A stretch of DNA of 64,000 nt from Salinibacter ruber DSM 13855. GTDB lineage: Bacteria > Bacteroidota > Rhodothermia > Rhodothermales > Salinibacteraceae. Each line of letters begins with the position of its first letter. Position 1 is the first letter of the stretch. The stretch is taken from assembly GCF_000013045.1 (NCBI RefSeq), contig NC_007677.1, positions 2,728,001 through 2,792,000 of the forward strand. Reading direction: 5' to 3'. Position numbers and translations under genes: made by a program. The notes beneath the pieces are model-generated. The model ran no database searches. It saw only the letters and a program-made list of their open reading frames with translations, and was not told the origin of the DNA. Shown in pieces: positions 12,668-27,077 of this stretch.

Positions 12668-13636
12668 TCAGGAGACGGCCTGGGGGGCGCCCTTCTCCCG
12701 CTCCCGGTACATCTTCTCGACGATCACCATGTGGGGAAGGGTCATGATGGCGATCAGGATGAAGAGAAGCGCGACCATCTGGTCCTCCAGCCCGAACGAC
12801 TGGGTGGCGGCGTAGAGGCCCGCCAGTCCGACGAAGGGAATCGCCGTGAACAGGAACGCCTCCCGGTAGAACTGGGCCATCGACATGGCGTCCCCCTGCC
12901 GCCGGAAGAAGCGGAGGAGCTCCAGGATGTGCCCCAGCGCGTGCCACCCCCCGAAGAAGACCGCAAAGGCCACGAGCGGGTGGACGAGCCCAAACAGCGC
13001 CGCGAGCACCGCGACGTTGGTCGCCTCCCGCCCGAGGGCCCAGTCTACACTCGGATCCGCCCCCAGCCTGCCGATTCCGAGCGCCCCCAGGTGCTGCGCG
13101 ACGAGGCCCGCGAACAGGGCGCCCGGCGCCGTCGTCACCCCCGGCCACTCGAGCAGTTGAACGCCCCCCATCGCCTCGAAGATGGGCGCGACGACCTCCG
13201 GAAAGGCCACGATGGGCAGGCCGAGGAGAAAGAGGCCGCGCGACAGGTAGAGGAGACGGGCGGACAGGGGCGGGAGCCGCCAGTAGGCCAAGTCGGCCTG
13301 CCCGAAGTGATACATGGTCATGACCAGAAAGAGACCGAGGCTCCAGGCCGGGGCCACAATCCAGAGCGCCCCGTAGAGCGCCATCAGGACGAGGTAGCCG
13401 CCGTAGAACTTCGCCTGGTCGGCCCACGTCGGGTCGAGGCCCCACAGCCGGGCCGCCACGAGGTGATCGATGGCCCCGTGCGGCATCCCCGTCAGCACGA
13501 CGGCCACGAACAGGACCCCCAGCGCCCAGGGCCCAAGGGAGACGCTGCCCCACGCCCCCACCGCGACGGCCAGTAGCGTCAGGGCCAGCACGCTCCCGTA
13601 GATGCGCGGCGAGCGAAGGGTAACCGGGTTGTGCAT
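12668..13636 (-). CDS. blh: Brp/Blh-type beta-carotene 15,15'-dioxygenase
   Basis: Brp/Blh enzymes are integral membrane iron enzymes that cleave beta-carotene into two retinals, the chromophore of microbial rhodopsins. The 322-residue protein has about eight hydrophobic segments. The signature GMPHGAIDH lies near the N-terminus, and other conserved His occur in MYHFGQAD and GGWHALGH. I chose ATG 13636 (MHNPVTLRSP); an upstream start at 13708 adds 24 residues outside the family pattern. No rhodopsin gene is adjacent, but Salinibacter is known to make several retinal proteins. A TATACT box on this strand at about 13684-13679 could be its -10 element. Confidence 0.9.
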   Translation of the reverse strand: MHNPVTLRSPRIYGSVLALTLLAVAVGAWGSVSLGPWALGVLFVAVVLTGMPHGAIDHLVAARLWGLDPTWADQAKFYGGYLVLMALYGALWIVAPAWSLGLFLVMTMYHFGQADLAYWRLPPLSARLLYLSRGLFLLGLPIVAFPEVVAPIFEAMGGVQLLEWPGVTTAPGALFAGLVAQHLGALGIGRLGADPSVDWALGREATNVAVLAALFGLVHPLVAFAVFFGGWHALGHILELLRFFRRQGDAMSMAQFYREAFLFTAIPFVGLAGLYAATQSFGLEDQMVALLFILIAIMTLPHMVIVEKMYREREKGAPQAVS

Positions 13637-14073
13637 GGTGGAAACAGGACGGCTTCGTAGAAAAACTTGACTGCATACAGTATAAGCGAAGAGACGGGGG
13701 AGGTCCACGGCCGCCTCCGTGGGCCCTGGGAGTTCCCAACAATTTTGTTACACCCGGACGCTCTCCTTCCGCGCTCCGTGACGTGACGCCCCTGCCCCAT
13801 GGGACCGAGGGGGGTGAGACGAAGGAAACGCCCCGTTCTGTCCCCTTCTTGGGGAGACGCGGTGTATGGAAGAATCAATCCCTCATATGGAAGGATCGCC
13901 CCTCGTCCCTGCGGCGGCACGCCGGCCGGCCGTTTCTGCCCCCTGCCGGGTGTGACGATGCTGAGAAACTTACGCTGGGCGGCGATATTACGGAAAGGCG
14001 ACGACCGCGTGGCGTCTAATTTGTTCAGCGTTGTTACGCGCAAGCACCTCATTCCACGCCTCCTCCCCTCCCC
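13637..14073. promoter_or_regulatory. Divergent control region blh/ndh with paired 12-bp repeats
   Basis: This 437-bp region separates divergent blh and ndh and holds no gene. TATGGAAGAATC (13865-13876) and TATGGAAGGATC (13886-13897) are 11/12 identical and start exactly 21 bp apart, two helical turns. This is the geometry expected of a dimeric regulator site. The regulator is unknown. A TATACT/TATAAG motif near 13679-13686 is a candidate promoter for blh. Confidence 0.45.
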
Positions 14074-17484: not shown

Positions 17485-17511
17485 GTGTTTCCCCCCGATT
17501 TTTGTCTTCCC

Positions 17512-18753
17512 ATGGCCATCGTTCTCGCCTTCAGTGGAGGCCTCGACACCTCCTTCTGCGTTCCGTACCTGCAAGCGACCCACGACGCCCCGGTTCACAC
17601 CGTCACGGTCGACACCGGCGGCCTCACCGACGACGACCGCACGGCGATCGAGGCCCGAGCCCGGCACCTCGGTGCGGACCGGCACCACCTCATCGACGGG
17701 CGGGCGCCGCTCTACGAGGATCACCTGAGCTACCTGATCAAGGGGAATGTCCTGAAGGGCGGCGTCTACCCGCTGTGCGTGGGGCCGGAGCGCATCGTGC
17801 AGGCGCGGGCCGTGGCGGAGGTGGCACAGGCGGTCGGGGCCTCTACGGTCGCCCACGGCTCCACCGGGGCCGGCAACGACCAGGTGCGGTTCGACGTGGC
17901 CCTGCAGCTGGTGGGCGACGACCTCGACGTGATTGCCCCGATTCGCGAGCTCGGCCTAAGCCGGGATGCCTCGACGGCCTACCTCGAGGCGCGCGGCTTT
18001 TCGGTGCCGGACGACACGACCGACTACTCCATCAACCGGGGCCTCTGGGGCACCACGATCGGCGGCAAGGAGACGCTCACGGCGAAGGCTTCGCTGCCGA
18101 CGGACGCCTACCCGGACACGACGGCCCCCGCCGACGCGCCGGACGCGCCGCGCACCCTCACGATCACGTTTGCGAACGGGCTCCCCGTGGCCGTCGACGA
18201 CGCGTCCCTCTCGGGGGTCGAGGTCGTCGAGACGCTCAACGAGGTCGGCGGACGGCATGGCGTGGGGCGGGATGTCCACGTGGGGGACACCATCCTCGGC
18301 ATCAAGGGGCGGATTGGGGTCGAGGCGCCCGCGGCCCAGATCCTGATTACGACCCACCGCGAGCTCGAAAAGGTCGTGCTCTCGGAGCAGCAGCAGGTGC
18401 AGAAGCACACCCTCGGCGACGTGTACGGCCGCCTGCTTCACGAGGGACAGTATTTCGATCCGGTGATGCGGGACGTGGAGGCGTTCCTCGACCACAGTCA
18501 GGACGTCGTCGCCGGCACCGTCACGGTGAAGCTCTTCAAGGGCCGCGCCACGGTGCAGGGCGTCGACAGCCCCCACTCCCTGTTCGACGCCGGTACGGCC
18601 ACCTACGGCGAGGAAAATGCGCTGTGGGACGGTCGGGACGCGGAGGGCTACACCACGCTCGCTGCCATTCCCTCCCTCCTCGCCAAAAAGGCCCGCGCCG
18701 ACACGGATCCCCCGGGCTCCGAGCCGATGATCGCCGAATCGACCACGGGATAG
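17512..18753 (+). CDS. argG: Argininosuccinate synthase
   Basis: ArgG joins citrulline and aspartate using ATP. The 413-residue protein has the ATP pyrophosphatase loop LAFSGGLDTS near its start, GGVYPLCVGPERI, the citrulline/aspartate-binding VAHGSTGAGNDQVRFD, and DYSINRGLWGTTIGG. ATG 17512 (MAIVLAFSGG) is the family start. It opens a same-strand run to argH at 27077. The leader has an attenuator-like terminator. The N-terminal VPYLQATHDAPVHTVTVDTG is closer to the version seen in Bacteroidota than to the E. coli long form. Confidence 0.96.
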   Translation: MAIVLAFSGGLDTSFCVPYLQATHDAPVHTVTVDTGGLTDDDRTAIEARARHLGADRHHLIDGRAPLYEDHLSYLIKGNVLKGGVYPLCVGPERIVQARAVAEVAQAVGASTVAHGSTGAGNDQVRFDVALQLVGDDLDVIAPIRELGLSRDASTAYLEARGFSVPDDTTDYSINRGLWGTTIGGKETLTAKASLPTDAYPDTTAPADAPDAPRTLTITFANGLPVAVDDASLSGVEVVETLNEVGGRHGVGRDVHVGDTILGIKGRIGVEAPAAQILITTHRELEKVVLSEQQQVQKHTLGDVYGRLLHEGQYFDPVMRDVEAFLDHSQDVVAGTVTVKLFKGRATVQGVDSPHSLFDAGTATYGEENALWDGRDAEGYTTLAAIPSLLAKKARADTDPPGSEPMIAESTTG

Positions 18754-18806: not shown

Positions 18807-19940
18807 ATGACCGACGACGCCTTCCAGACGGGTCCCGTCGACAAGATTGCCTCTAGCACCGCACACTGCGACATCGAGTCGCCGATCACGCTCTCCCCTT
18901 ATGTCGTGGCCCAGCACGGCTACGTGGTCGTGGTGCGCGCGCTCGACGAGAAGGACCAGTACGACGAGGTCGAGTGCAGCGACGGCGCCTTCCGCCACAT
19001 CCGGGAGGGCGACGTGCTCGTGGGGACGCTCGGCGGGCGGCAGGCGCTCAAAGGGTATAGCGGACGGGTCCCCCGCCACATTGCCCCCGGCGATACGCTG
19101 CACGTGCTCAACCTGGGCGGGCTCATCGGCGAGTGCACCGCAGCCCACCCCAACCTTGGGCCGGCCCTGCCGGTGGAGGTGCTCGGCGCCGTGATGGTCA
19201 AGCGGAACGACCAGTGGACGCACGCCCGGATCCAGGAGGACGCCCTGGAGATGCGGCACCGCCTGGCGACGTCGGTCCCGCTCGTCACGGTCAGCGGCAC
19301 GGCCATGGAGACGGGCAAGACCGAAGCCGCCTGCCGGATCGTGGAGGGGCTGTCGGCGCGCGGGCTTCGGGTGGGCGCCGCCAAGCTGACGGGGGCGTCG
19401 CTCATGCGCGACGTGCGCCGGATGCAGGCGCACGGGGCCACGGCCGTCTCCACCTTCACCGACGCGGGGATTGCCTGCACCGTGGAGGACGCGATCACCC
19501 CCATCGCGAAGGGCGTGATCCATCACCTCAATGAGACGGAGGACCTGGACGTGATCGTGGCGGAGATGGGCGACGGATTCGTCGGCTACTACGGCGTCGA
19601 CGACCTCTTGACGGACATGGAACTGCAGTCCTTCATCGAGGCGCACGTGGTGGCGGCCACCGACCTGGCCGGGGCGTGGGCCGCCGAGCGCACCTTCCGC
19701 GAGCGGTACCACGCCGACATCACCGCACTCACCGGCCCCGTCACCGACAACGACGTGGGGCGCCGCTACATCACACAGCGGCTCGGCGTCACCGCTCTCA
19801 ACGCCCTCCGGCAGGGCACCGCGCTCGTGGACGAGGTCGTGGACGCGCTCCCGGCGTCGGCTTTTCCGGAGGAAATCGAAGCGACGGCCCCCGCAGCACC
19901 GCCGTCGTCCGACGAACAACTCGCAGTCGCGGCGGAATGA
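18807..19940 (+). CDS. P-loop protein of unknown function in arginine cluster, DUF1611-like
   Basis: This 377-residue protein has a beta-rich N-terminal part (about 1-150) and a C-terminal P-loop domain. Walker A is GTAMETGKT (164-172), followed by KLTGASLMRDVRRMQAHG. A Walker B-like strand, DLDVIVAEMGDG, ends at about 257. The layout recalls DUF1611 and BioD/CobQ-type P-loop enzymes. From memory, DUF1611 includes an N-acetyltransferase acting on D-glutamate (DgcN). It sits 53 bp after argG and ahead of argC, inside a cluster that lacks a recognisable N-acyl-glutamate synthase. I infer, without proof, that it may supply that first step. A regulatory or kinase role is also possible. The C-terminal tail (355-377) is low complexity. 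Confidence 0.7.
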   Translation: MTDDAFQTGPVDKIASSTAHCDIESPITLSPYVVAQHGYVVVVRALDEKDQYDEVECSDGAFRHIREGDVLVGTLGGRQALKGYSGRVPRHIAPGDTLHVLNLGGLIGECTAAHPNLGPALPVEVLGAVMVKRNDQWTHARIQEDALEMRHRLATSVPLVTVSGTAMETGKTEAACRIVEGLSARGLRVGAAKLTGASLMRDVRRMQAHGATAVSTFTDAGIACTVEDAITPIAKGVIHHLNETEDLDVIVAEMGDGFVGYYGVDDLLTDMELQSFIEAHVVAATDLAGAWAAERTFRERYHADITALTGPVTDNDVGRRYITQRLGVTALNALRQGTALVDEVVDALPASAFPEEIEATAPAAPPSSDEQLAVAAE

Positions 19941-19950
19941 CGCGCGATTC

Positions 19951-20062
19951 GTGGTGCGTGAAGAGTGGTGCGTGAAGAGTGGTGCGTGAAGAGTGATGCA
20001 CTGGCAGCTGAGCTCTCGCCTCACGTTCCACGCCTCACGTTCCACGCCTCACATTTCACGCC
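19951..20062. repeat. 14-bp tandem repeats in inverted arms before argC
   Basis: Three perfect copies of GTGGTGCGTGAAGA occupy 19951-19992. After a 28-nt centre come two perfect copies of TCACGTTCCACGCC (20021-20048) and one variant, TCACATTTCACGCC (20049-20062). The right arm is an imperfect reverse complement of the left, so the spacer can form a long hairpin between the P-loop gene and argC. Confidence 0.85.
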
Positions 20063-20090: not shown

Positions 20091-21152
20091 ATGCCACAAC
20101 CTGCGCACTCGTTTTCGGCGTCCCCAACAGCGGTTTCCCACATCGGAGTTCTCCACGGGGCCGGCTACGTGGGCGGCGCACTGATTCGCCTGCTCGCCGC
20201 GCACCCCGCCGCCGCCCTCCACACGGTAACCAGCCGGACGTTCGCCGATCAGCCCGTCGGCGCAGCGCATCCGTCCCTCCGCGGGCAGGTCGATCATACG
20301 TTCACCGCTCCGGACGAGATTGCCTTCGGTTCGCTCGACGCCCTTCTCGTGGCGGCGGAGCACGGCCGGAGCATGCAGGTGGTGCCCGGCATCCTGGAAG
20401 ACGGCTTCGACGGTCCCATCATCGACCTGAGCGCCGACTTTCGGTTCCGGGACCCGGCGGTCTACCCCGAGTGGTTCGACACAGCGCACCCGGCCCCCGG
20501 CCTGCTGGCCGACGCCGTGTACGGCCTGCCGGAGTGGAGCGACGAGATCGGGGGGGCGTCGCTCGTGGCCACGCCCGGCTGCTACGCCACCGGCATCACA
20601 CTGACGCTGGCGCCGCTCGCGCAGCAGGACGTCCCCTTCACCGCCCACGTCACGGCGCTCACCGGCGCGTCCGGGTCGGGCGCCACGCCCTCGTCGGCCA
20701 CCCACTTCCCCGACCGCGACGGCAACGTGCGGCCCTACAAGGTGCTGGGCCACCAGCACCGCCCCGAAATCCGGCAGACGCTCGGCACCCACGTGTCGCT
20801 CGATTTCGTGCCCGCTTCCGGCCCGTGGACGCGCGGCATCTGGGGCACGGCGCAGATCGAGTGGCCGAAGGCGACCGATCCGAACACGGTATCTTCGTGG
20901 TACGAAGAGGCGTACGCCGGCGCGCCGTGCGTCCGCTGCTCGTCAGACAGACTGCCTTCGCTCCAGCCCGCAGTGGGCACCCCGTTCTGCGACCTCGGGT
21001 GGAAAACGGACGGCTCGACCCTCGTCGTCGGCTTTGCCCTCGACAACCTGCTGAAGGGCGCCGCGAGCCAGGCCGTCCAGAACCTCAATCGCATGCTGGG
21101 ACTGCCGGAGACGGCGGGACTGCTTACTTCGCCCGTGTCAGTCTCCACTTGA
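20091..21152 (+). CDS. argC: N-acyl-gamma-glutamyl-phosphate reductase
   Basis: ArgC reduces N-acylglutamyl phosphate to the semialdehyde with NADPH. The 353-residue protein has the dinucleotide loop HGAGYVGGALIRLL, the catalytic Cys in ATPGCYATG, and ALTGASGSGATPSS in the active-site region. ATG 20091 follows the repeat-filled spacer; a longer upstream frame is only read-through of the repeat. The acyl group could be acetyl or succinyl, and the neighbouring ArgF' points to succinyl. Confidence 0.94.
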   Translation: MPQPAHSFSASPTAVSHIGVLHGAGYVGGALIRLLAAHPAAALHTVTSRTFADQPVGAAHPSLRGQVDHTFTAPDEIAFGSLDALLVAAEHGRSMQVVPGILEDGFDGPIIDLSADFRFRDPAVYPEWFDTAHPAPGLLADAVYGLPEWSDEIGGASLVATPGCYATGITLTLAPLAQQDVPFTAHVTALTGASGSGATPSSATHFPDRDGNVRPYKVLGHQHRPEIRQTLGTHVSLDFVPASGPWTRGIWGTAQIEWPKATDPNTVSSWYEEAYAGAPCVRCSSDRLPSLQPAVGTPFCDLGWKTDGSTLVVGFALDNLLKGAASQAVQNLNRMLGLPETAGLLTSPVSVST

Positions 21153-21222: not shown

Positions 21223-22410
21223 ATGACCACCGCCGAGACTATCGACATCGAGCAGCAACTCGAGATCCCGACGTACGACAAGATGCCGATGGCGCTCGTG
21301 CGGGGGGAGGGGCCCTACGTGTGGGACGCCGAGGGCACCCGGTACCTCGACTTCTACGGGGGGCACTGCGTGTCGCTGCTCGGCCACTGCCACCCGAACG
21401 TCGTGGCGGCCGTGCAGGCCCAGGCCGAGCAGCTCATCTTCTACTCGAACGTCGCGCACAGCCCGGTCCGCGCCCGGGCCGCCCGGCGGCTGGCGGACCT
21501 GGCCCCCGACGGCCTCGGCAACGTCTTCTTCGCCAACTCCGGCTCGGAGGCCAACGAGACGGCCCTGAAGCTGGCCCGGACGTACACGGGACGGTCCGGC
21601 GTCGTGGCGATGGAGCAGGGCTGGCACGGACGCACCCTCGGCAGCCTCGCCACCACGCACGACGAGACGTACCGCGCCCCCTACACGGACGTGCTTCCGG
21701 AGACGACCTGGGTCCCGGTGGGCGACCTCGACGCCGCGGAGGCGGTGCTGTCCTCTGAGGAGATTGCGGCCGTCCTCCTGGAGCCGATCCAGAGCATCGC
21801 CGGCATGCGGGCGATGCCCGCCGACTACGTGCAGGGCCTCCGTGCCCTCTGCGACGCGACCGGCACGCTTCTGATTTTCGACGAGGTGCAGACGGGCGTG
21901 GGGCGGACCGGCACGTTTTCCATGAGCGCCCCCCTCGGCGCCACGCCGGATCTCATTGCCCTCGCCAAGAGCCTCGGGGCCGGGGTGCCGGTGAGTGCCG
22001 TGCTCGTGGACGACGCCGTGGCCGCAGCCGTGGACCCCGGCGACCAGGGCTCCACGTTCGGCGGGGGGATGCTCGCGATGGCGGCCGTGGAGGCCACCCT
22101 CCGGACGCTGGTGGAGGACGACCTGATGGGCCGGGCGACCGACATCCACACACAGGTGGCCGAGGCCGTGGGGCCGGTCGTCGAGGAAGTGCGCGGGCGC
22201 GGCTGCCTGATGGGGCTCAAGCTGAACCGGCCGGCCGAGCCCGTGATCGATGCGCTTCGCGACCAGAATGTGCTCGTCGGCGGCTCGTCGGACCCCTACG
22301 TGATGCGCCTGATGCCCCCGCTCGTCGTCTCGGACGACGACGTGACCGCCTTCGCGGAGGCGCTCCACGCCGCCCTCGACGCCACCTCGGCCCCTGCCAG
22401 AGCACACTGA
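21223..22410 (+). CDS. argD: Acylornithine aminotransferase
   Basis: This class III PLP aminotransferase makes N-acylornithine from the semialdehyde and glutamate. The 395-residue protein has YLDFYGGHCVSLLGHCHP, FANSGSEANETALKLAR, the IFDEVQTGVGRTG motif, and the PLP lysine in ALAKSLGAGVP. GGMLAMAAVEATL closes the active site. It lies between argC and argF' with 70-bp gaps on each side. Specificity for the acetyl or succinyl form cannot be told from sequence. Confidence 0.93.
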   Translation: MTTAETIDIEQQLEIPTYDKMPMALVRGEGPYVWDAEGTRYLDFYGGHCVSLLGHCHPNVVAAVQAQAEQLIFYSNVAHSPVRARAARRLADLAPDGLGNVFFANSGSEANETALKLARTYTGRSGVVAMEQGWHGRTLGSLATTHDETYRAPYTDVLPETTWVPVGDLDAAEAVLSSEEIAAVLLEPIQSIAGMRAMPADYVQGLRALCDATGTLLIFDEVQTGVGRTGTFSMSAPLGATPDLIALAKSLGAGVPVSAVLVDDAVAAAVDPGDQGSTFGGGMLAMAAVEATLRTLVEDDLMGRATDIHTQVAEAVGPVVEEVRGRGCLMGLKLNRPAEPVIDALRDQNVLVGGSSDPYVMRLMPPLVVSDDDVTAFAEALHAALDATSAPARAH

Positions 22411-22480
22411 CGTGACGACTCCGACGCGTGGAAACCCGCCGATTTCCCCTTTCTCCCTGCGATTGATCTCCTCCACAACA

Positions 22481-23539
22481 ATGCCAACGTCTCCGTCCCC
22501 CACAACCTCGTCCTCCTCCAGCACGGACGACCTGCAGCACATCCTCCGCGTCGACGCGGTTTCGGACGCCACCTGGGACGCGCTCCGTCACACCGCCGTG
22601 CAGCATCGACACGACGGCACCCTGCACGCCGGGGCCGCTTCGGGCTCGTCCCTCGGGCTCGTCTTCATGAACCCCTCGCTCCGCACCCGCACCTCGATGG
22701 AGGGCGCCGCCGCGCACCTGGGGGCCCGCCACACGACCCTGGTGCCGGGCAACGGGAGCTGGGCCCTCGAATGGGAGCTGGGCGCCGTGATGGACGGCGA
22801 GGCGGCCGAGCACGTGCGGGAGGCAATCGGCGTGCTGTCGCGCTACCACGACGCCCTGGGCGTCCGCGTCTTCGCGTCCGGCACCGATTACGGCGCCGAC
22901 GCACAGGACACGCTCATCCGCACTGTCGCCGAGCACGCGACGGTGCCGGTCATCAACCTGGAGTCCGCCTGGGCGCATCCGTGTCAGGGCCTCGCCGACG
23001 CGGCCCTGCTCACCGAGCGGTACGGGGACGCCCTTGCGGACAAAACCTTCGTCCTCTCGTGGGCGCCGCACCCGAAGCCCCTGCCGATGGCCGTGCCGAA
23101 CACGGCGCTCCGCACGGCGGCCCGCTGCGGGATGGACGTGACCGTGGCCCGCCCCGACACGCATGCCCTCGACCCGGGGGTGATGGCCGAGGCGGAGGCG
23201 CTGGCCGAGACGCAGGGCGGATCGGTCTCGGCGACGAGCGACCAGGCGGCCGCGGCGGAGGGGGCCGACGTGGTCTACGCCAAGTCGTGGGGCGGCCCGC
23301 TCGTGTACGAGAACCCGAAGGCCGAGTCCGAGGCCCGGGCGGCCCGTTCCGACTGGCGCATCACCGCGGACCTGATGGCACGCACCCGAAACGGCGCGTT
23401 CCTGCACTGCCTCCCCGTCCGCCGCAACGTGGTGGTGGACGACGCGGTGCTCGATGGGCCGCACGCCGCCCACCTCGATCAGGCCGAATACCGCCTCCAC
23501 GCGCAGAAGGCGCTTCTCCAGTACGTGTGGAGCCTCTGA
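22481..23539 (+). CDS. argF': N-acylornithine carbamoyltransferase, succinylornithine-like
   Basis: This enzyme makes acyl-citrulline from carbamoyl phosphate and an acyl-ornithine. The 352-residue protein has the carbamoyl phosphate loop NPSLRTRTSMEGA (65-77) and HPCQGLAD. WAPHPKPLPMAVPN and HCLPVRRNVVVDD resemble Bacteroides succinylornithine transcarbamylase more than Xanthomonas acetylornithine transcarbamylase. Ala109 (in MDGEAAEH) sits where, by my recalled alignment, the acetyl enzyme has Glu92 and the succinyl enzyme Pro90. The Lys that is carboxylated in the acetyl enzyme is Val here. I use ATG 22481; GTG 22412 would add 23 low-complexity residues. Confidence 0.9.
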   Translation: MPTSPSPTTSSSSSTDDLQHILRVDAVSDATWDALRHTAVQHRHDGTLHAGAASGSSLGLVFMNPSLRTRTSMEGAAAHLGARHTTLVPGNGSWALEWELGAVMDGEAAEHVREAIGVLSRYHDALGVRVFASGTDYGADAQDTLIRTVAEHATVPVINLESAWAHPCQGLADAALLTERYGDALADKTFVLSWAPHPKPLPMAVPNTALRTAARCGMDVTVARPDTHALDPGVMAEAEALAETQGGSVSATSDQAAAAEGADVVYAKSWGGPLVYENPKAESEARAARSDWRITADLMARTRNGAFLHCLPVRRNVVVDDAVLDGPHAAHLDQAEYRLHAQKALLQYVWSL

Positions 23540-23672
23540 GCGCGGGGGAATGAGAGCGCGGGAGCATGGGCGTACTCCTCTACACTCTTGGAAAAGACCC
23601 CAATCCCCCGCGCCCCCACGCTTCCGTGCTCTCTTCTTGCTACTTAAACGACGCGAAGCAGTATCAATCCTG
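23540..23672. repeat. Purine-rich/pyrimidine-rich inverted arms before argB
   Basis: A purine-rich arm (GCGCGGGGGAATGAGAGC, then GCGGGAGCATGGG) is followed by a partly complementary pyrimidine-rich arm (CCAATCCCCCGCG, CCCCCACGCTTCC). The 133-bp argF'-argB spacer thus resembles the other repeat-filled spacers of the cluster, though less regular. Confidence 0.45.
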
Positions 23673-24476
23673 ATGACCAGTAAGACGAAAGCGCCGACGG
23701 TAATCAAGATCAGCGGATCGCTCCTCGACGAGCCGAACGCACTGGCCGACCTCTGGCCCAGTGTCCAGGCGCTGCACGAGGACGCCCCGGTGGTGCTCGT
23801 CCACGGCGGCGGCACGCAGATGACGGCCCTCGCGGACCGGCTCGGCCACACGCCGGAGCGGGTCCAGGGCCGTCGCATCACGACCGACCTCGACCTCAAG
23901 ATCGCGCAGTGGGCCATTCGGGGCTCGCTCAACACGACCCTCGTGTCGGAGGCCCAGCAGCACGACCTCACCGCGGTAGGGGTGTCGGGGGCCGACGCCA
24001 CCCTGGTCCAGGTGTCCAAACGCCCGGCGTGGGACGTCGACGGGCGGACCGTCGACTTCGGATGGGTCGGCGACATCGAGCACGTCGACCCCTCCCTTCT
24101 GGAGGGATTGATGGCCCGGTCGCTGGTGCCCGTCGTGGCCCCCCTCGGCATTGACGACGAGGGGCAGGTCTACAACGTGAACGCCGACACGGTTGCCCGT
24201 GCGCTGGCCGAGGCCCTCGCGGCCGACCCGTTGCTCTACGTCACCGAGGCGGGGGCCGTGCGCCGGGACGCCGAGAATCCCGCGTCTCGCCTGGCCACCT
24301 GTCCCCCGGGCACCGCCCGGCAGGGAATCGCGGAGGGGTGGATCGCAGGCGGCATGCGCGTCAAGGTCGAAACGGCGCTCGACGCCCTCGACGGTTCCGT
24401 TGGCGCAGTGTATATCTGCGGCCCGGGCGACCTCCTGGCTCGGTCGCAGGCCACGGAGGTCGTACTGGAGGCGTGA
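23673..24476 (+). CDS. argB: N-acylglutamate kinase
   Basis: ArgB phosphorylates N-acylglutamate. The 267-residue amino acid kinase has IKISGSL at the start and VLVHGGGTQMTAL for ATP/substrate binding. Also present are GRRITTDLDLKIAQWAI, VYNVNADTVA, and the C-terminal EGWIAGGMRVKVETALDAL. ATG 23673 is preferred because it directly precedes the conserved start; the longer frame overlaps the end of argF'. It lacks the N-terminal helix of arginine-inhibited ArgB, so feedback control by arginine on this enzyme is not expected. Confidence 0.92.
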   Translation: MTSKTKAPTVIKISGSLLDEPNALADLWPSVQALHEDAPVVLVHGGGTQMTALADRLGHTPERVQGRRITTDLDLKIAQWAIRGSLNTTLVSEAQQHDLTAVGVSGADATLVQVSKRPAWDVDGRTVDFGWVGDIEHVDPSLLEGLMARSLVPVVAPLGIDDEGQVYNVNADTVARALAEALAADPLLYVTEAGAVRRDAENPASRLATCPPGTARQGIAEGWIAGGMRVKVETALDALDGSVGAVYICGPGDLLARSQATEVVLEA

Positions 24477-24477
24477 T

Positions 24478-24519
24478 GCGTGAATTGTGATGCGTGAATT
24501 GTGATGCGTGAATCGTGCC
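24478..24519. repeat. 14-bp tandem repeat after argB
   Basis: Two perfect copies of GCGTGAATTGTGAT (24478-24505) and one variant (24506-24519) begin next to the argB stop codon, which itself lies in a partial unit, GCGTGAT. A weak complementary arm, GCGTTTCACGTTTC, lies at about 24544-24557. Confidence 0.8.
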
Positions 24520-24610
24520 CGGTGTCTCTGCTCCCCACGACATGCGTTTCACGTTTCGAGAGGCGAGAATCGGGCAACGACGTGATACATCAACCGACTT
24601 CCCGGATGCA

Positions 24611-25696
24611 ATGGCACTCCCTTCGACGAACACAGCCGCCGTCGACTTCCTCAAGGCCCTCGTTCGCATCCCCTCCCTCACGGGCGAGGAGGCGGCGATC
24701 GCCGGCTTCGTAGAGCAGCACGTCCGCCGCGCCGGGGTCGATGTGCTCCGGCACGAGGACAACGTGGCGTTTGGGATCGGCGAGGGCGACGACACGCTGC
24801 TCCTCAACTCGCACCTCGACGTCGTGCCGCCCTCCGACGACCATCCGTACGACCCGTTCGAGCCGGTCGAGACAGACGGCGTCCTCTACGGCCGGGGCGC
24901 CGTGGACGCGAAGGCCAGCGGCGCCGCGATGACGACGGCGCTGCTCTCCCTGGCGGCGGACGGCTGGGCCCCGACCAATGGCCGGCTCCTGGTCGGCCTC
25001 ACGACCCACGAGGAGTCCGGGGGCACGAAGAACGGGCTGCAGGACCTGCGTCCCAACCTTCCGTCCCTGTCCGCCGCCGTTGTCGGGGAGCCCACCACGC
25101 TCCGCCCCTGCGTCGCCCAGAAGGGCCTTCTCATCCTGAAGATCCACGCCCGGGGGACGGCCGCACACGCCGGACGGTCGCACCTCGGCGACAATGCGAT
25201 CCCCGCGGCGATGACGGCGATTCGACAGCTCGAGGATCTTTCCCTCGACCGGGCGGACCCGCACCTCGGTGCGCCGACCGCAACCGTCACCACCATCGAG
25301 GGCGGCGAGGCGCACAACGTGGTGCCCGAGCACTGCGTCTTCACCGTTGACCTCCGCACCACGCCCGCCTACACGCACGACGAGATTGCGGGGCTGGTAT
25401 CCGAAGCGGTAGACGCGGACGTGGAGGTCTACAGCGACCGCCTCGTGCCCTGCGCCACACCCGAGGACGCGCGGATCGTCCGGGCCGCCCGGGCCGCCTG
25501 CCCCGACGCCGAGCCCTTCGGCTCCCCGACCTCCTCGGATTGGGTCTTCCTCCACGATGTGCCCACCGTCAAGATGGGACCGGGCCCCAGCAACCGCTCC
25601 CACACCGCCGAAGAGCGGATCGACGTGAACGAGGTGAAACGGGCCGTCACCGTCTATCGGGACCTAATCCGGGCCTACTTTTCGCGGGCCGCGTAG
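24611..25696 (+). CDS. argE: M20 acyl-ornithine/acyl-citrulline deacylase
   Basis: This zinc-dependent M20 amidohydrolase removes the acyl group late in the pathway. In an ArgF'-type pathway the substrate is acyl-citrulline. The 361-residue protein has the metal motifs LLLNSHLDVVPPSDDH and YGRGAVDAKASG. The catalytic Glu-Glu is in THEESGG, followed by VVGEPT, and the dimerisation domain has GTAAHAGRSHLGDNA. ATG 24611 follows the repeat-bearing spacer. Because the cluster removes the acyl group by hydrolysis, each turn consumes one acyl donor. A separate acylglutamate synthase is therefore required. Confidence 0.9.
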   Translation: MALPSTNTAAVDFLKALVRIPSLTGEEAAIAGFVEQHVRRAGVDVLRHEDNVAFGIGEGDDTLLLNSHLDVVPPSDDHPYDPFEPVETDGVLYGRGAVDAKASGAAMTTALLSLAADGWAPTNGRLLVGLTTHEESGGTKNGLQDLRPNLPSLSAAVVGEPTTLRPCVAQKGLLILKIHARGTAAHAGRSHLGDNAIPAAMTAIRQLEDLSLDRADPHLGAPTATVTTIEGGEAHNVVPEHCVFTVDLRTTPAYTHDEIAGLVSEAVDADVEVYSDRLVPCATPEDARIVRAARAACPDAEPFGSPTSSDWVFLHDVPTVKMGPGPSNRSHTAEERIDVNEVKRAVTVYRDLIRAYFSRAA

Positions 25697-25763: not shown

Positions 25764-27077
25764 ATGACTGCCCCTCTCTGGCAAAAAGACGCCACGCCCG
25801 CGACCGACGACTGGGCCCACCGCTTCACGGTCGGGGACGACTACGAATGGGACCGCCTGCTGCTGCCCTACGACGTGCGGGCGAGCCGCGCCCACGCCTG
25901 GGGCCTCCGCCAGATCGACGTGCTTTCGGAAACGGAGTGGACGCGGATCGGCGACGCCCTAGACGCCCTGCTCGACGCGTTTGAGGCGGGCGACGTGACC
26001 GTGACGCCCGAGGACGAGGACTGCCACACCGTGATCGAGCGGTTCGTGACCGAGCGCGCCGGGGCGGCCGGCGAAAAGCTGCACACGGGGCGCTCCCGCA
26101 ACGACCAGGTGCTCGCGGCGCTCCGGCTCTACCTCCGCGACGCCCTCGCCGCGATCGGGGGCCGGGCCGCCGCCCTCGCCGACGCGCTGTGCGAGCTCGC
26201 GACCCGACACCCGGACGTTCTCATGCCGGGCTACACCCACCTGCAGCGGGCCATGCCGTCCACCGCCGCCCTCTGGACCCTGGGGTACGCGGAGACGCTG
26301 GCGGGCGACCTCGATGCCCTCCGCCATGCCCGCCGCCGGATTAACGTGTCCCCCCTCGGCAGCGCCGCGGGCTACGGCGTGCCCGTGATCGACCTGCCGC
26401 GCGAGGCCGTGGCCGACCGCCTCGGCTTCCGCGCCGTGCAGACCCACGCCACGGCCGTGCAGCTGAGCCGGGGCAAGCACGCACTCGCCGTGGGCCACGC
26501 CTGCACGCAGGTCGGTGCCACCTGCAACCGCCTGGCGTCCGACCTCGTCCTCTTCGCCACCGCCGAGTTCGACTTCGTGGACCTGCCGCCGGAGCACTGC
26601 ACCGGCAGCAGCATCATGCCGCAGAAGCAGAACCCGGACGTGCTGGAGCTGGCGCGGGCCTACCACCACCGCCTCGCCGCCCAGATGCAATCCCTCGCCA
26701 CCGGCCCGTCGAACCTGCCGGGCGGCTACCACCGTGACCTCCAGCTCACGAAAGCGGCGGTCCTGCGCAGCGTGGAGATGACATCCGACGTCCTCACCGC
26801 GCTCGCCGAAGTGGTGCGGGGCGTCACGTTCAATCCCGAACGGACGCGGGCCGCGTGTGCCCCTGACATTCTCGCTACCCAGCGGGCGCTGGAGCGGGTT
26901 GCCGAGGGCGTGCCCTTCCGCTCTGCCTACCAGCAGGCCGCGGATGCGGAGCCGGGCCCTGTCGATCCCGGTGCCGTTCTCGACGCGTACGAGACCGACG
27001 GAACGCCCGGCCAGGAGCGGCCCGACCGCGTCCGGAGCCGGCTCGACGCCCACGGCGACTGGGTCGTGACGCCGTAG
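25764..27077 (+). CDS. argH: Argininosuccinate lyase
   Basis: ArgH splits argininosuccinate to arginine and fumarate. The 437-residue protein has TGRSRNDQVLAALRLYLRD, the MPGYTHLQRAMP motif, and the signature GSSIMPQKQNPDVLELAR with the catalytic Ser. It closes the arginine run and is convergent with terC, with only 13 bp between stop codons. The argE-argH spacer is a pyrimidine-rich tract (CCCACCCTCTCCACTCTC) like the argG-P-loop spacer. Confidence 0.95.
   Translation: MTAPLWQKDATPATDDWAHRFTVGDDYEWDRLLLPYDVRASRAHAWGLRQIDVLSETEWTRIGDALDALLDAFEAGDVTVTPEDEDCHTVIERFVTERAGAAGEKLHTGRSRNDQVLAALRLYLRDALAAIGGRAAALADALCELATRHPDVLMPGYTHLQRAMPSTAALWTLGYAETLAGDLDALRHARRRINVSPLGSAAGYGVPVIDLPREAVADRLGFRAVQTHATAVQLSRGKHALAVGHACTQVGATCNRLASDLVLFATAEFDFVDLPPEHCTGSSIMPQKQNPDVLELARAYHHRLAAQMQSLATGPSNLPGGYHRDLQLTKAAVLRSVEMTSDVLTALAEVVRGVTFNPERTRAACAPDILATQRALERVAEGVPFRSAYQQAADAEPGPVDPGAVLDAYETDGTPGQERPDRVRSRLDAHGDWVVTP

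Follow-up and report, generated by a model that had tools for sequence, protein, structure and literature searches.

We propose that an unnamed gene in the arginine cluster of Salinibacter ruber DSM 13855, here called X, very probably encodes the enzyme that forms N-acylglutamate at the start of arginine synthesis, most likely as N-succinyl-L-glutamate, and that it stands in place of the GNAT-type synthase ArgA2. The gene lies at 18807-19940 (+) of the window, the 64,000-nucleotide stretch of the S. ruber chromosome analysed here, and is an intact open reading frame of 377 amino acids. The proposal draws on the exclusive exchange of X with ArgA2 among related genomes, its fixed place in the arg operon, its absence together with the rest of the pathway, and its BioD-type P-loop fold; from these features we infer X itself to be the catalyst of amide-bond formation. 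A preliminary description of this DNA, made from its letters alone, had suggested X as the missing first enzyme of arginine synthesis, and the exclusion between X and ArgA2 now supports that suggestion as a role prediction.

The genes around X, confirmed with Pfam and NCBIfam models, run in the order argG-X-argC-argD-argF'-argB-argE-argH, all on the + strand. Upstream, argG (argininosuccinate synthase, 17485-18753; TIGR00032 above cut-off) adjoins X here and in every other intact X cluster. Downstream lie argC (N-acylglutamyl-phosphate reductase, 20091-21152; TIGR01850 above cut-off), whose open frame begins at 19965 and whose likelier start is the ATG at 20091; an argD-type aminotransferase (21223-22410; PF00202, with acetylornithine transaminase as the best NCBIfam model); and argF' (N-acylornithine carbamoyltransferase of the N-acetylornithine-carbamoyltransferase type, 22412-23539; PRK04523, 516 bits), which has Ala at the acyl-specificity position (MDGEAAEH). 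These are followed by argB (N-acylglutamate kinase, 23454-24476; TIGR00761 above cut-off), which has no fused GNAT domain and is given here as its longest frame, the true start probably lying further in; an M20 deacylase of the hydrolytic ArgE/DapE type, designated argE (24515-25696; PF01546 and the DapE-ArgE subfamily model); and argH (argininosuccinate lyase, 25764-27077; TIGR00838 above cut-off). Because the M20 deacylase is hydrolytic, each turn of the pathway requires freshly acylated glutamate. As the preliminary description had noted, the run from argG to argH contains neither a GNAT nor an ArgJ acylglutamate synthase. Elsewhere in the window, a frame at 12668-13708 (-) resembles, by eye only, a Brp/Blh-type beta-carotene dioxygenase of retinal synthesis, which would suit a rhodopsin-bearing Salinibacter.

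The gap extends to the whole genome. Arginine synthesis can also begin with ArgJ, classical ArgA or ArgA3 (M20-like) (PMC9026213), and BT3761, an ArgA2 homologue, is required for arginine synthesis in B. thetaiotaomicron according to fitness evidence and has been proposed to be an N-succinylglutamate synthase (PMC7311316, PMC9026213). In Balneolales, as in other Bacteroidota, the ArgA2 gene directly precedes argG. A search of the S. ruber genome (3,587,328 bases in two contigs) returned no homologue of ArgA2, the Bacteroidota GNAT synthase, and no ArgJ; ArgJ was also absent from all 103 Rhodothermales genomes, while control genomes matched as expected. About ten other GNATs of S. ruber, all uncharacterised, exceed the Pfam cut-off, and all score far below any curated N-acetylglutamate-synthase cut-off. 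A clear synthase elsewhere in the genome would, according to the preliminary description, speak against its proposal; we looked for one and found no ArgJ, ArgA2 or synthase-grade GNAT. Our literature search found no published role of X, and no paper on the enzyme that opens arginine synthesis in either Salinibacter or Rhodothermus.

Orthologs of X occur in 20 of 247 genomes of the phylum, all within one class, and the lower-scoring matches elsewhere in the phylum are distant paralogs with 23-28% identity. A contig search with X as the query returned four close relatives only. Since orthologs of 51-97% identity hold the same slot across the class, the slot is conserved far beyond chance. We compared X, ArgA2 and the pathway marker ArgF' over the same 103 Rhodothermales genomes. 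Among the 87 that carry ArgF', X alone is present in 53 (two of these copies being contig-edge fragments), ArgA2 alone in 32, both in one and neither in one (Fisher p 1.7e-21, uncorrected for kinship). The check for mutual exclusion between X and GNAT synthases in arg clusters, which the preliminary description had proposed, thus came out very strongly positive. In the arg clusters fetched, the order argG-X-argC is found in all intact X clusters, whereas argC directly follows argG in every ArgA2 genome; the clusters of G263, G264 and G283 are interrupted, and there X lies on a different contig or is a contig-edge fragment. We also considered X as a mere marker of genomes with an arg cluster and rejected this, since ArgA2 genomes share that cluster but lack X.

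The genomes outside this pattern are few. The one with neither gene (G272) has a contig that ends inside its arg cluster. The only genome with both (G030; L266, L046) carries X inside the arg cluster and ArgA2 elsewhere, and perhaps represents an intermediate state of the exchange. Another 13 genomes have none of ArgF', X and ArgA2; three of these belong to the genus Salinibacter. The genomes G289, G290 and G295 of that genus, together with G286, G287 and G297 of its family, are nearly complete yet lack all three, which suggests that arginine synthesis has been lost in some Salinibacteraceae. Among genomes without a detected ArgF', two carry X (G311 and G316, 99% and 85% complete) and one carries ArgA2 (G309, 88% complete). 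In G311 the locus (L263) reads argG-X-argC-argD on a contig that continues 3.7 kb past argD, and ArgF' was not found in the genome. A highly divergent X, in G262 (L224), has 36% identity and a long branch and still occupies the argG-X-argC slot. Several ArgA2 matches in genomes of f7, f44 and f47 (for example G203, G163 and G249) cross one in-frame stop, often TAG, probably as the alignment continues beyond the natural stop of a shorter protein.

Shared ancestry was addressed with a tree built from a concatenation of five arg proteins in 99 genomes, on which X and ArgA2 have been exchanged at least nine times, six of the exchanges being forced by well-supported branches. When three long branches were dropped, seven exchanges were counted and the six forced ones remained. 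In the six supported independent pairs, ArgA2 moves opposite to X in five and is unchanged in the one that involves the genome with both genes. A sign test corrected for phylogeny gives p 0.0625, and so few pairs allow no lower value. The tree of X itself broadly tracks families, a pattern which suggests that an old X has been repeatedly displaced by ArgA2, or the reverse.

The acyl group can be approached through ArgF'. The choice between acetyl and succinyl substrates depends on the residue at Glu92 of the Xanthomonas enzyme, which aligns with Ala in S. ruber, and the PDB chains nearest to S. ruber ArgF' are variants of the Xanthomonas enzyme at residue 92. In a motif survey this residue is Ala, rarely Pro or Thr, in X genomes and Ala, Val, Ser or Pro in ArgA2 genomes, and never Glu in either. 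Ser, Pro, Ala or Val at position 90/92 denotes succinyl preference (PMC7311316), and the Ala of S. ruber belongs to this set. Given the same kind of specificity residue in X and ArgA2 genomes, both proteins probably form the same product, N-succinylglutamate. The preliminary description had left the choice between acetyl and succinyl; the Ala of ArgF' makes succinyl appear likelier and acetyl less likely. We consider it unlikely that X attaches a different group, such as acetyl, formyl or another carboxylate. Such a product would be in keeping with the acetyl-specific parent of the nearest PDB variants and with the name N-acetyltransferase given to DgcN, a protein of the same fold, and the specificity of ArgF' is read from one residue. 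Nevertheless, Ala in nearly all X genomes, the lack of the acetyl-enzyme Glu in any of them, the same kind of residue in ArgA2 genomes, and a cluster otherwise unchanged by the ArgA2 swap all argue for succinyl.

Less probable still is that X performs some other arginine-related task, as a regulator, chaperone or activator, while an unrecognised GNAT elsewhere makes the acylglutamate. GNAT is the usual fold for this synthesis, and one of the roughly ten S. ruber GNATs could in principle act on glutamate, but none of them nears a synthase cut-off. Across the GNAT loci compared, a part of those in two genomes with X and two with ArgA2, a single S. ruber GNAT has a clear ortholog (about 55%) in both of the former, and this ortholog is equally present in an ArgA2 genome. 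Moreover, a helper protein would not swap so strictly with ArgA2, and the strict exchange favours X as the synthase itself.

The N-terminal part of X (residues 1-150; 18807-19256, +) is predicted to be a separate all-beta domain (AlphaFold2 model of the domain alone, pLDDT 89.6), and a comparison with the PDB gave no convincing fold match (best Foldseek E 0.41; best Z 3.4), a result that does not in itself point to a new fold. The following part (residues 153-347; 19263-19847, +; AlphaFold2 model, pLDDT 90.7) is modelled as a P-loop domain with the fold of BioD, CTP synthase and DUF1611. Foldseek alone placed SRP GTPases and BioD first for this domain, and VIA-align was therefore used. Its matches were the DUF1611 structures 2g0t (Z 17.6, rmsd 2.7, 180 aligned) and 2obn (Z 16.7, rmsd 2.6, 179 aligned), CTP synthase (Z 16.8), BioD 3of5 (Z 16.2) and DgcN 7xrj (Z 15.5, rmsd 3.0, 184 aligned), scores that lie partly within one Z unit and are to that extent tied. 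A phmmer search of the PDB with the single X sequence gave no match, and a whole-family profile produced weak matches, some of them to designed proteins. With a profile of the P-loop half, the top PDB matches were BioD chains at weak E values (0.013-0.065), with the Walker A motif and the following Lys aligned. Neither a GNAT domain, in Pfam up to E 10, nor an evident CoA site was found in X.

Both the Walker A motif GTAMETGKT and the EMGDG that the preliminary description had seen in this unnamed gene are present in the intact frame. Walker A occupies residues 164-172 (19296-19322, +), with G164, G170 and K171 invariant in orthologs and distant paralogs and T172 invariant in orthologs. Lys193 (19383-19385, +), invariant in both groups, is aligned by profile, weakly (E 0.013), to the conserved Lys of the BioD GYKP motif, and the Walker-B-like EMGDG (residues 253-257; 19563-19577, +) contains the invariant Glu253. 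R78, K171, K193, D202 and E253 are retained even in distant paralogs, whereas K82, R90, K235, Y262, D265, W291 and D314 are invariant in the compared orthologs and not in the paralogs.

Curated family models place X outside DUF1611, DgcN and BioD. Against DUF1611 (PF07755) it scores 15.4 bits (E 0.012), below the gathering cut-off of 25 bits, and a DUF1611 search of the S. ruber genome at E 1e-4 was negative. The DgcN model NF041892 (equivalog cut-off 480 bits), on which a true DgcN from G108 scores 561 bits, does not match X at E 0.01, and X matches no BioD family at E 0.01 in NCBIfam or up to E 10 in Pfam. Profile comparison with a DUF1611 set including DgcN indicates a distant tie (probability 72-87%, with E 3.6e-6 at 87%). 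The ATGQTG motif that follows the P-loop helix in DUF1611 is replaced in X orthologs by AK(L/A)TGA, while TGQ is invariant in the DUF1611 set. The DUF1611/BioD-like layout given in the preliminary description therefore holds for the fold of the P-loop domain only, residues 1-150 being modelled as a separate all-beta domain, and its parallel with DgcN applies at the level of fold, not of family membership. X is best labelled a new P-loop family whose kinship to DUF1611/DgcN and BioD lies at the fold level. The shared fold (7xrj, Z 15.5) and the profile similarity (87%) might also suggest that X, like DgcN, whose substrate is D-glutamate, N-acetylates D-glutamate so as to feed or salvage it, and that its position in the arg cluster is due to chance. 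This is very improbable, as NF041892 does not recognise X, a maker of N-acetyl-D-glutamate would still leave the acylation of L-glutamate lacking, and this reading explains neither the obligate order argG-X-argC nor the exchange with ArgA2.

The genome of Rhodothermus marinus DSM 4252 (G008) carries X and lacks ArgA2 and ArgJ (the latter 0 of 103 across the order); its GH12 protein is identical over 224 residues to PDB 2bw8, which we take to be R. marinus Cel12A. R. marinus DSM 16675 needs no amino acids for growth on glucose and ammonium (PMC9590192). Allowing for the difference between these strains, at least one species with X thus makes arginine without any known first enzyme. That X genomes import arginine precursors and need no synthase, so that the pattern is a coincidence, is the least probable reading of all: S. 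ruber is usually cultured with yeast extract or peptone (PMC6508672), but R. marinus grows without amino acids and the rest of the arginine pathway is wholly kept.

For the chemistry of X as a synthase, two courses stand at roughly even chances. In a BioD-like course, ATP bound at the P-loop would activate a carboxylate, here succinate, as an acyl phosphate formed near Lys193, Asp202 and Glu253, for subsequent attack by the amino group of glutamate; Arg78, Lys82, Arg90 and Lys235, invariant in orthologs, are candidate carboxylate-binding residues. Alternatively, and about as likely, the acyl group would be transferred directly from acyl-CoA, as is reported for DgcN. Because X keeps the P-loop and lysine of BioD where the DUF1611 set has GKM/GKR and TGQ, we lean towards ATP-dependent carboxylate activation. 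The fully specified version, an ATP-dependent N-succinylglutamate ligase that would join succinate and L-glutamate at the expense of ATP by dethiobiotin-synthetase-like chemistry, is offered tentatively, as a possibility that we would not yet back over the others.

Distant paralogs may extend this picture. S. ruber has one (28% identity), in an operon with an M20 deacylase and a flavin-reductase-like gene, and this trio of flavin-reductase-like gene, M20 peptidase and X paralog (L065:8028-11031, C1:608027-611030) recurs in a distant Bacteroidota genome (G134, L061:8577-11389); in both it perhaps serves N-acyl amino-acid chemistry. Other distant paralogs (L060, L062 and L063; G009, G037 and G111) adjoin ABC transporter genes, a context that differs from that of X and of the M20-linked subfamily. 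With M20 deacylases as neighbours of two subfamilies, we infer a family of putative amino-acid N-acylating enzymes, which the distant paralogs, two of them next to M20 deacylases, may mark as a wider one.

If our assignment is right, X closes the arginine-synthesis gap across an entire class that includes S. ruber and R. marinus, and the known first enzymes gain a P-loop family that is not GNAT. Automated reconstructions, which would otherwise score these bacteria as arginine auxotrophs, would be corrected. The repeated exchange of X with ArgA2 would also offer a clear case from nature of non-orthologous gene displacement. Should X prove to be a ligase, arginine synthesis in these bacteria would begin without an acyl-CoA-dependent transferase; we know of no first arginine step of the ATP-dependent ligase kind so far.

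Several known systems resemble X or share its proposed role. ArgJ, classical ArgA and ArgA3 have folds unrelated to it. With DUF1611 (2g0t, 2obn) it shares the P-loop fold, as its best fold match, and a weak profile similarity, but its N-terminal half is modelled as all-beta, its score is sub-gathering and it has K-x-TG where DUF1611 has ATGQ(T/S)G. DgcN (NF041892, 7xrj), named an N-acetyltransferase in NCBIfam and the PDB, has the same P-loop domain fold, whereas its Walker A is GTDCxxGKM instead of the GxxMxTGKT of X and the N-terminal domains appear to differ. BioD and the N-terminal domain of CTP synthase resemble X in the Walker A pattern GT-x4-GKT, the next Lys and the fold (Z about 15-17), although X has an extra all-beta domain and belongs to an arginine operon, while BioD serves biotin. 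ArgA2 (BT3761-type), in contrast, is a GNAT-fold protein of about 210 amino acids and X a 377-residue P-loop protein without a GNAT match, yet the two share the proposed reaction and pathway and the kind of ArgF' residue that accompanies them, and they alternate in otherwise identical arg clusters.
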